Position numbers and translations under genes: made by a program. The notes beneath the pieces were generated by a model. The model did no database searches. It saw only the letters and a program-made list of their open reading frames with translations, and was not told the DNA's origin. A stretch of DNA of 64,000 nucleotides from the NCBI RefSeq assembly GCF_003932495.1, contig NZ_QZMT01000011.1, positions 1-64,000 of the forward strand. Direction: 5' to 3'. Shown here in pieces: positions 98-2,582 of this stretch; the first letter of the stretch is position 1; each line of letters starts with the position of its first letter. The stretch is from Guyparkeria sp. SCN-R1 (GTDB lineage Bacteria; Pseudomonadota; Gammaproteobacteria; Halothiobacillales; Halothiobacillaceae).

Positions 98-113
98 CTG
101 GTGGCTATGGGTG
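98..113. repeat. Left copy of a tRNA-Met 3'-end direct repeat (putative att site)
   Basis: CTGGTGGCTATGGGTG matches positions 2505-2520 exactly. The right copy is the CCA end, discriminator, acceptor strand and start of the T stem of the tRNA-Met gene. After three differing bases both copies continue with TCGAA. A detached copy of a tRNA 3' end downstream of that tRNA is the usual signature of site-specific integration by a tyrosine recombinase. No integrase is visible between the copies. Confidence 0.6.
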
Positions 114-238
114 CCATCGAAAATACGGCCACAGACCGCAACGCAACGCGGTTTGTGTCAGTGTGGACCATTCCGCCTCCCACTCTGGTCCCCACCTTTG
201 CGGCCGGTTGCAAGCAAATCACAGGGGGACAATCTGAC

Positions 239-385
239 ATGACAGCCAAGGCAATGACAGCAACGGGCCACGGACAGTCCGCCCGATTCAAGACAGCCGC
301 CAGCCGGGTAGGGGGGCAGCATGATGGCCTGGGAAAAGCTTTCCCCGACTCCGGCGGACATTCCGCAGCTTGTAGCTCACGCTGA
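239..385 (+). CDS. Unknown 48-aa ORF, island-encoded
   Basis: I do not recognise this short ORF. Its main support is a good purine-rich ribosome-binding sequence, AGGGGGA at 223-229, nine bases before the ATG. The predicted peptide is rich in Ala, Gly, Ser and Thr and has no membrane segment or clear domain. It overlaps the start of the next ORF at 321 in another frame, which would allow translational coupling. It could equally be leader sequence rather than a gene. Confidence 0.25.
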   Translation: MTAKAMTATGHGQSARFKTAASRVGGQHDGLGKAFPDSGGHSAACSSR

Positions 386-734
386 GGGCGTCCGGTATGA
401 CTTCAGATCAAAGAAGTGGGTAGGCGACCTCTCGAAAGAGACAGCCCGCGCCACCCTTAAGGCCCTGGTATTCGCGGCCGATGATCTAACGCGCTCGATC
501 CCGGCGGTTGTACAGGTGACCGATGACGCATCATCACAGCGCGAAACGGAAAGCGCGCCCCGGTCTACGTCCGACTACGCCTCGTGGTTAGGGGACGCTC
601 TAATAGCACGCGACCAGGTGGCGACCACGATCACCAGCGCGGCCACGCTTGCCGGTCAGGCTACCGGCGCAGCCTATCTGCTCTTTGAGTACGTTGCCAG
701 TGCGCAGGAAGCGGAAAGCCGGAAACAGACCTAG
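321..734 (+). CDS. Hypothetical protein, island-encoded
   Basis: The predicted product is 137 aa with no motif that I recognise. It begins MMAWEKLSPTP and is a soluble, mixed-charge protein without a signal peptide; the second half (residues 90-135) is Ala/Thr-rich and probably helical. The start is supported by a strong purine tract (AGGGGGG) five bases upstream. A GC-rich hairpin followed by T residues lies just downstream at 763-795, so the ORF looks like a complete transcription unit. It lies between the two tRNA-Met-derived direct repeats, which suggests accessory DNA. No function can be assigned. Confidence 0.5.
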   Translation: MMAWEKLSPTPADIPQLVAHAEGVRYDFRSKKWVGDLSKETARATLKALVFAADDLTRSIPAVVQVTDDASSQRETESAPRSTSDYASWLGDALIARDQVATTITSAATLAGQATGAAYLLFEYVASAQEAESRKQT

Positions 735-762
735 GCATTGCTTCACCAGTGCACCGGCACAG

Positions 763-795
763 CCCCGCCTGAACAACCGGCGCGGGGTTTTCTCG
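763..795 (+). terminator. Intrinsic terminator after the 137-aa hypothetical gene
   Basis: CCCCGC (763-768) pairs with GCGGGG (782-787), followed by TTTTCTCGTT. It lies 29 bp after the stop codon of the gene ending at 734. The stretch from here to 983 shows no gene, only short T-runs and falling GC content. Confidence 0.6.
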
Positions 796-983
796 TTGTA
801 CCTGGCGACCCATCCGCCAGCGATGGAACGCGGCACCCTCGTTTTTTGATTTTTCGGACGCAAAAAACGCTACCCGCAGTCGTTCTGCCTCTGGGGTTGG
901 TTGAACTTTTCTGCGCTTAGGCCGTCCATTTATCGCTTGGCTAGTGTCATCCATTTGTCATCTTGTTAGCAGTTAGAAACCAG

Positions 984-1103
984 AATGTAGCTAGGCGATT
1001 ATTCAGGAATCCGAATACAGTTGGGCGAGTATCTAGGAATCACAATACCGTTATTCGGGTATTTAGAAAACCCGATATAGCTGGGTGAGTATTTAGAAAT
1101 CAC
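984..1103 (+). repeat. Four 30-bp imperfect tandem repeats upstream of the P-loop gene
   Basis: Units lie at 984-1013, 1014-1043, 1044-1073 and 1074-1103 with no spacer between them. Most copies show AATA(C/T)AG(C/T)TGGGCGAGTAT followed by TTAGAAATCAC. The first half carries an interrupted dyad, AATAC then ten bases then GTAT. A degraded fifth unit may precede the array (AGTTAGAAACCAG at 971-983). The last unit ends five bases before the ribosome-binding sequence (AAAGGTG) of the gene at 1115. Phased dyads next to a start codon suggest an operator array or iteron-like binding sites; this is inference. Confidence 0.75.
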
Positions 1104-1114
1104 AAAGGTGAATT

Positions 1115-1681
1115 ATGGCAAAACTGACGATCATTGTCGGCGTCGGGGCCTCCGGGAAGTCAACGCTACGTAAGCAGATTTGTGAAAAGACTGGTGCCCG
1201 GGGTTTTGAAGACGGGACTGCGGTGCCGCGGGGCAATGACAGACGAAGAGCCGGTCATCGCGCTCTTCCGGAGTTGGTGGCGAGACTGCTCGGGCCATCC
1301 GCACAAGATTGTGTGTTGGACGAGTCACATCTCGTGCATGAGAGGTTTCGGAAAGAGTTTCAGCGTTTTTGTGACAAACACCTGCCCGGAGTCGAACAAG
1401 AGTGGATTTTCTTTAACAATGACCTGGCTGCCTGCGCAAGTAACGCTTATTTCGACGCTATGAACCATGGGAGGAAAGACGCGAGCCGCTTTCGATCAAT
1501 ATTGGGTCAGAGCAAGAAGTACGTCGTCCCGGAAGTTGGTAGCTATCCCGGCCACGACCAAGTGCTCTCTGTCTATCAACAAGAGAAACCGCAATTTCGG
1601 ACTGGCGAAGAAGAAAAAGCGCGTAAGTGGTTAAAAGCCGCTATCAAAGCGGTTGAGAATGGTGAGGAGTTCCCAGTTTAA
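1115..1681 (+). CDS. P-loop NTPase, AAA_33/zeta-toxin-like small-molecule or polynucleotide kinase fold
   Basis: This 188-aa product opens with a Walker A motif at residues 10-17 (GVGASGKST region) typical of small P-loop kinases. An LDESH segment near residue 70 could serve as Walker B. A small helical lid-like middle and a Lys/Glu-rich C-terminus follow. That architecture is seen in AAA_33, zeta-toxin and phage-type kinases, but the substrate cannot be read from the sequence. The start is fixed by AAAGGTG seven bases upstream, directly after the 30-bp tandem repeats. GC content is lower than in the core genes of the window. It is followed after 44 bp by a broken HNH-nuclease-like gene, so the pair may once have formed a defence or toxin-type module; that is speculative. 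Confidence 0.6.
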   Translation: MAKLTIIVGVGASGKSTLRKQICEKTGARGFEDGTAVPRGNDRRRAGHRALPELVARLLGPSAQDCVLDESHLVHERFRKEFQRFCDKHLPGVEQEWIFFNNDLAACASNAYFDAMNHGRKDASRFRSILGQSKKYVVPEVGSYPGHDQVLSVYQQEKPQFRTGEEEKARKWLKAAIKAVENGEEFPV

Positions 1682-1725
1682 CAGGCCGCCGTTGGGCGGT
1701 TGCAATAGATATTCGGACAAAAATA

Positions 1726-2335
1726 ATGAGCAAACATTTATTTGAATATGTCCAAAAAACTTGTCTCGCCGTTTTAACGAAATCTGACGCAGAATTTCGC
1801 CAAAGAAACGATGGTGATGATGCAAGGAAAACTTTTTACGGAAAATTAAATGGAATCGCTTTATCGGGATTTTTAAGCGTGATTTATTGCCTATGGTCGT
1901 TGGCAAGTCAGTAGGGGCTAATTGGTCAGATAATGAAGGTTGGCTTGTGCCGATTGAATGGACCGTTCAGCCATCGCCGGTTAGACCGAAAACACATATT
2001 GGACGCATCGCTCCGTTGCTTCCGGATAAATACTCGCCGATACAATCCAACGGCAACGGAAATCAAGGGTGCTACCTTGCGCACATATCGAGAGACCTTG
2101 GTTTGCTCTTTCTATCTTTTAATGGACGAGTTGCTCAGCTGGCAGAGCTTGAAGAAGAACTTCAAGAACAAGAAATCGTGGATCAGATACGGGATTCACC
2201 TAGACAGCCCACGGAAAAAGAACCGCTCGTTCGAGCCAGACAGGGACAGGGGGCTTCAGGCTTCGTCTGATGCGGATCGAGCTTACCGGGGTGGAAGACA
2301 CGATAGGTCGAAACGTTTTCAAAGACGCGAACTGA
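1726..2335 (+). pseudogene. Broken HNH endonuclease-like gene (N-terminal and linker parts only)
   Basis: Three reading frames must be joined to read one protein. Residues from 1726 run to about 1870 in frame 1. Frame 3 continues KRDLLPMVVGKSVGANW to about 2250 and includes LLPDKYSPIQSNGNGNQG and TEKEPLVRARQGQG. Frame 2 then reads GFRLRLMRIELTGVED to a stop at 2333-2335. From memory of the family, these blocks match the region before the catalytic HNH domain of a group of bacterial HNH endonucleases. The HNH domain itself is absent. Each frame change lies at a five-base homopolymer (T at 1870-1874, G at 2249-2253) and fits loss of one base, so either real decay or homopolymer sequencing error is possible. 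Truncation before the HNH domain argues for real decay. Confidence 0.5.
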
Positions 2336-2382
2336 GAAGAACCTTCCATATGGAAGTGAGGCGGGTAACAATTGTTTGAGGT

Positions 2383-2419
2383 GAGAGGCGCAGCATTCCT
2401 GATAAGTTGCGTCTCTTTT
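2383..2419 (+). terminator. Possible intrinsic terminator closing the island genes
   Basis: GAGAGGCGCA at 2383-2392 can pair, with one bulge, with TGCGTCTC at 2408-2415, followed by TTTT. It lies about 50 bp after the HNH-like pseudogene on the same strand. Confidence 0.4.
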
Positions 2420-2456
2420 GTCGTTACCATGCCCTTCGGGTGGCCGACCGAGCAAT

Positions 2457-2497
2457 AAAAAAGGCCTAGGTGTTCACGGAGAACGACCTAAGCCTTT
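2457..2497 (-). terminator. Intrinsic terminator of the tRNA-Met transcript
   Basis: AAGGC-TAGGT-GTTC at 2461-2475 pairs with GAAC-ACCTA-GCCTT at 2481-2496 with one mismatch and one bulge. On the minus strand it is followed by six T residues (A-run 2457-2462). It lies just beyond the tRNA 3' end, inside the putative island boundary. Confidence 0.7.
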
Positions 2498-2504
2498 AAT
2501 AATA

Positions 2505-2520
2505 CTGGTGGCTATGGGTG
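2505..2520. repeat. Right copy of the tRNA-Met 3'-end direct repeat (putative att site)
   Basis: Identical to 98-113. Positions 2506-2520 are the functional 3' end of the tRNA-Met gene, so the resident gene stays intact, as expected when an element integrates into a tRNA 3' end. The enclosed segment is about 2.4 kb. Confidence 0.6.
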
Positions 2521-2582
2521 GATTCGAACCACCGACTCCGGCATTATGAGTGCCGTGCTCTAACCAGCTGAGCTACATAGCC
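2506..2582 (-). tRNA. tRNA-Met (CAT), elongator type
   Basis: A complete 77-nt cloverleaf with encoded CCA. The acceptor stem pairs GGCTATG with CATAGCC, the anticodon loop is CTCATAA with anticodon CAT, and the T arm contains GGTTCGAATCC. The body resembles the Escherichia coli elongator tRNA-Met rather than the initiator. It lies downstream of ychF, as in Pseudomonas, and may be cotranscribed with it. Its 3' end appears to be an integration site. Confidence 0.95.

Follow-up and report, generated by a model that had tools for sequence, protein, structure and literature searches.

Positions 98-2504 of the window studied here most probably hold the remnant of a decayed integrative element, which is non-autonomous, retains both of its att sites and resembles a cis-mobilizable element (probability roughly 0.75). 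The window, meaning the whole stretch of 64,000 nucleotides that was analysed, comprised positions 1-64,000 of the forward strand of contig NZ_QZMT01000011.1 (contig C11) from Guyparkeria sp. SCN-R1 (GCF_003932495.1; draft genome of 2.42 Mb), and its first base was the first base of the contig. A first-pass annotation of this DNA had described a small tRNA-Met island without an integrase and had offered three alternatives for it: a relic, a satellite moved in trans, or the interior of a larger tandem island. The island itself was borne out by empty sites in five congeners, and the relic proved the best supported of the three, given the broken nuclease gene, the absent integrase and the absence of arm sites on the tRNA side. 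The features of the locus, with the evidence for each, are listed below.

1-57: end of a multicopy insertion sequence (IS), resembling IS3 in its terminal sequence TGAAGTGACCCC..AAAGTTGGAC, lying at the contig edge and interrupting the native tRNA/lnt terminator
58-97: native flank of the chromosome, made up of one half of the tRNA-Met/lnt terminator (alignment; directly beside tRNA-Met in G005 and other congeners)
98-113, plus strand: att copy distant from the tRNA, a 16-bp repeat of the tRNA-Met 3' end (exact sequence match)
114-826: far-end module that recurs at 83-84% DNA identity in the Guyparkeria sp. WRN-7 element, which has an integrase
187-196, plus strand: putative arm-type integrase site GGTCCCCACC (repeat comparison)
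321-734, plus strand: 137-aa ORF of unknown function, intact in WRN-7 too (dN 0.11, dS 0.48)
973-1105, plus strand: 30-bp tandem repeat in four degenerate copies, the last of which stops shortly before the start codon of the P-loop ORF (repeat analysis)
1115-1681, plus strand: intact P-loop ORF of 188 aa with Walker A motif GASGKST, a near-orphan (weak AAA_33 and phage kinase matches)
about 1726-2280, plus strand: HNH endonuclease pseudogene, its N-terminal part split over two frames and its C-terminal HNH domain absent (homology)
2453-2498, minus strand: terminator-like hairpin with a U-run, directly downstream of tRNA-Met and replacing the native one (fold)
2505-2520, plus strand: tRNA-proximal att copy, the 3' end of tRNA-Met (exact match and tRNA position)
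2506-2582, minus strand: intact tRNA-Met (CAT), the integration target (tRNA search)

Boundaries of the insertion at tRNA-Met

The 16-mer CTGGTGGCTATGGGTG, which consisted of 15 nt of the tRNA-Met 3' end including CCA plus one base, was exact at both att positions. A search of the 2.42-Mb genome recovered these two copies only, compared with an expectation of about 0.001 for any given 16-mer, and a chance repeat was thereby ruled out; the repeat named in the first-pass annotation was confirmed, and the 16-mer did not recur elsewhere in the genome as it had cautioned. In Rfam, the tRNA alone reached the gathering score. The G+C content was 0.523 for 98-2504 and 0.483 for 827-2504, compared with 0.628 in the rest of the window, in agreement with the lower-GC DNA reported earlier between the repeats. 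The DNA between the att copies is foreign. When the distal att pattern was searched against a collection of genome contigs, five matches were obtained, one being WRN-7 and the other four, in other genera, being taken as chance; viral contigs gave no match.

Comparison of the tRNA-Met locus among strains, which had been recommended as a check, revealed an empty site in five congeners (G001, G002, G005, G009 and G010), where tRNA-Met was followed by a short hairpin and a G+C-rich terminator and then by the lnt region in collinear order. The 2.4 kb were therefore not conserved in relatives, and the island was missing even from G002, the closest relative sampled. In SCN-R1, the native flank lay immediately outside the far att copy and was cut there by the IS end. 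The lnt gene was located on contig C24; at the end of this contig the remaining half of the native terminator adjoined the opposite end of the IS. When the flank halves from C24 and C11 were joined without 98-2504, they aligned end to end with G005. Because the joined flanks rebuild the empty site of the congeners, the insert is, as read from these alignments, exactly 98-2504, with only an IS required to its left. The bridge between C11 and C24 would pass through this IS, which is multicopy; it is consistent with both terminator halves and with the order of genes in relatives. Seven more IS copies were present in the genome, mostly at contig ends. Copies with the same IS3-like ends were inserted in terminators and broke the assembly at many contig ends (C10, C15, C27, C30, C3).

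Gene content and the related element in WRN-7

No ORF for an integrase, another recombinase or a transfer gene was found within 98-2504, consistent with the earlier statement that no recombinase lay inside. The P-loop gene and the nuclease remnant reported in the first-pass annotation were both present. The 137-aa ORF appears to be under purifying selection, judging from its dN and dS values against WRN-7; searches of Pfam, PADLOC and NCBIfam gave nothing for it, and PHROGs nothing below E 0.07. The 30-bp repeats that directly precede the P-loop ORF may be an operator or iterons; nothing convincingly similar was found in the rest of the genus. For the P-loop protein, relatives were weak matches at most in the genome and viral collections, phages and plasmids, with one match of 30% on a Bosea plasmid and one weak match among 369 genomes. 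The protein is perhaps kinase-like. Its single-sequence AlphaFold2 model was too poor (mean pLDDT of 44.6), and the top Foldseek match, T4 polynucleotide kinase at E 0.02, was discounted. The nuclease remnant was 45.8% identical to an annotated HNH endonuclease on a Photobacterium plasmid; its frame was broken near 1880, and the match stopped at a GQG motif ahead of the catalytic HNH domain.

A larger element occupied the same tRNA-Met gene in Guyparkeria sp. WRN-7 (G004), and a second att copy was found in only these two strains among 27 genomes of the order. The order in WRN-7 was tRNA, a 9.4-kb element (L045:7726-17145), an att copy, approximately 1.1 kb of foreign DNA and lnt; the outer att had been lost. 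Beside the tRNA the element carried a tyrosine integrase gene; its other products were an AlpA-type regulator, two replication proteins (Toprim and DUF927) and an HNH nuclease, and no conjugation or mobilisation gene was recognised in it. It used the same att core, and its far end was 83-84% identical to 98-826 of the window, the 137-aa ORF included. It is likely an autonomous relative of the island. The stub past its att copy opened with a 53-bp terminator, to which the tRNA-side end of the island was 94% identical. The WRN-7 locus thus displays the tandem accretion of an integrase element beside a stub, the tRNA-side end of which matches the SCN-R1 island.

The hairpin at 2453-2498 had a folding energy of -26.4 kcal/mol (z of -8.1) on the tRNA strand. 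The WRN-7 element and the native empty site each had a tRNA terminator of their own, and as the island, the WRN-7 element and the native site carry different ones, each insertion replaces the terminator of tRNA-Met. In G007 and G008, the terminator beside the tRNA resembled the tRNA-side end of the island and the neighbouring genes were different.

Direct repeats of the GGTCCCCAC type were present at both ends of the WRN-7 element and at the far end only of the SCN-R1 island. They are candidate arm-type sites for the integrase. In WRN-7 a second copy of GGTCCCCACC was situated 12 bp away from the first, and this copy was degenerate in the island. No occurrence of GGTCCCCACC, the arm motif on the tRNA side in WRN-7, was detected at the tRNA-side end of the island with up to one mismatch. 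The island has probably lost its integrase-side arm along with the enzyme. The SCN-R1 genome encoded three tyrosine recombinases, one XerC-like and one XerD-like (labels that rest on sequence and gene context) and one distant integrase on contig C18, whose partial alignment with the WRN-7 integrase showed 26% identity; an enzyme closely related to the WRN-7 integrase was not found in the genome. The C18 integrase belonged to a second integrative element (L065:4514-9374), which lay downstream of an opgG-like gene, also encoded a replication-type protein and had no tRNA at its integrase end. In G002 (L083, contig C3), an integrase sharing 59% identity with the WRN-7 enzyme was encoded near a tRNA-Phe gene.

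Decay of the element and alternative explanations

The preferred explanation is that an element entered the 3' end of tRNA-Met by recombination over the 16-bp core, presumably through a tyrosine integrase, as the att core and the WRN-7 element suggest. The insertion would have restored the tRNA and brought a new terminator beside it. The integrase and its arm would then have been lost, a step that combines their observed absence today with a presumed former integrase, and the nuclease gene would have decayed by the frameshift and truncation seen in it. The island would now be immobile unless an element of the same site specificity joined it in tandem or acted in trans. This course is supported by the exact att cores, the broken HNH gene and the absence of both the integrase and the tRNA-side arm sites. 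However, the 188-aa P-loop and 137-aa ORFs are intact, so that decay is incomplete, and an intact parent element with the P-loop gene or the SCN-R1 HNH gene was not found in the relatives or collections searched. The tRNA-side end with its terminator also counts against decay: because it is common to the WRN-7 stub and resembled in G007 and G008, it resembles the true end of an element more than the scar of a random deletion.

As a special case of decay, the island may have arisen by fusion of two tandem elements, an internal deletion having removed the middle att site and the integrase and joined the tRNA-side end of one element to the far end of the other. The two ends do match different neighbours in WRN-7, the far end matching the integrase element and the tRNA-side end the stub beyond it, and tandem accretion is present in that strain. 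However, a single element with both ends gives the same layout, and when an internal att remnant was looked for in the island none was found; we regard fusion as possible but unlikely.

Movement in trans was a further suggestion of the first-pass annotation. Under this explanation the island is a small non-autonomous satellite that never carried an integrase and was moved by WRN-7-type elements having the same att core and far-end module. Little supports it beyond the intact att cores and the one arm common to the WRN-7 element, and an integrase closely related to that of WRN-7 was not found in the SCN-R1 genome. The module shared with an integrase-bearing element, with its ORF apparently under purifying selection, the recurrence of this tRNA-side end, again without an integrase, beside other cargo in the WRN-7 stub, and the absence of the island from G002 are also in its favor. 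On the other hand, arm-type sites were absent from the tRNA-side end, with a single good one at the far end, the nuclease gene was broken, and the complete 2.4-kb unit occurred once among the 27 genomes of the order (in SCN-R1). An origin of this kind is therefore rather improbable. Less probable again is its more specific form, in which a minimal satellite combining the recurring tRNA-side terminator end with the far-end module of an integrase-bearing satellite would be moved in trans between Guyparkeria genomes with exchangeable cargo.

It is very improbable that a larger tandem island extends to the left, with the present one as its interior, and this earlier proposal was contradicted by the data: although the window starts at a contig edge where the assembly is broken, the native terminator half adjoins the left att copy, its other half and lnt sit at the C24 end beside the opposite end of the same IS type, so that no larger island is required, and the genome contains two att copies only.

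Relation to known kinds of island

A cis-mobilizable element (CIME) is a decayed ICE or IME that has lost its integration and transfer genes and kept its att sites (PMC5704250, after Pavlovic et al. 2004). The remnant in SCN-R1 is similar in that it was without integration and transfer genes, retained both att sequences (an exact 16-bp pair) and was located at a tRNA 3' end; the tandem arrangement of the WRN-7 integrase element with a related stub is also what the accretion model predicts. Both kinship to an integrase-bearing element and decay were seen. However, CIMEs derive from ICEs or IMEs, whereas the WRN-7 relative had no recognised ICE/IME transfer gene and was more like a phage satellite; the parent of the island may have been an ICE/IME or a phage satellite, and excision and cis-mobilisation of the island are putative.

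Among Dehalococcoides ssrA islands, 15 lack integration modules and were suggested as possible CIMEs (PMC3146451). They resemble the SCN-R1 island in being integrase-less and bounded by direct repeats of the end of an RNA gene; they differ in forming tandem arrays with rdhA cargo at ssrA, whereas the SCN-R1 island is a single 2.4-kb unit at tRNA-Met. An autonomous genomic island has its own integrase beside an att site, which the SCN-R1 island does not. The integrase, AlpA-type regulator and primase/helicase of P4- or PICI-like phage satellites were present in the WRN-7 element and absent from 98-2504. The WRN-7 element itself has its att core in common with the island, as well as the far-end module, in which the 137-aa ORF and an arm-type site lie, but is larger, encodes its own integrase and the other proteins named above, and has a different tRNA-side end.

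Integrase-less remnant islands have already been described in other bacteria; the SCN-R1 case is ordinary, and its resolution is unusually good. It leaves the general picture of tRNA islands unchanged and provides a clean example of their wear: the insertion is exact, five relatives have the empty site, and a relative that is likely autonomous occupies the same tRNA beside a tandem stub. It also illustrates that each inserted element supplies its own terminator for the tRNA gene.

The 2.8-kb inserts of G007 and G008 were considered as a sister island and rejected, the terminator alone being similar. Between tRNA-Met and lnt, where a second att copy was absent, these two genomes carried a P-type cation ATPase gene (L047:659-3800 and L048:932-4100).
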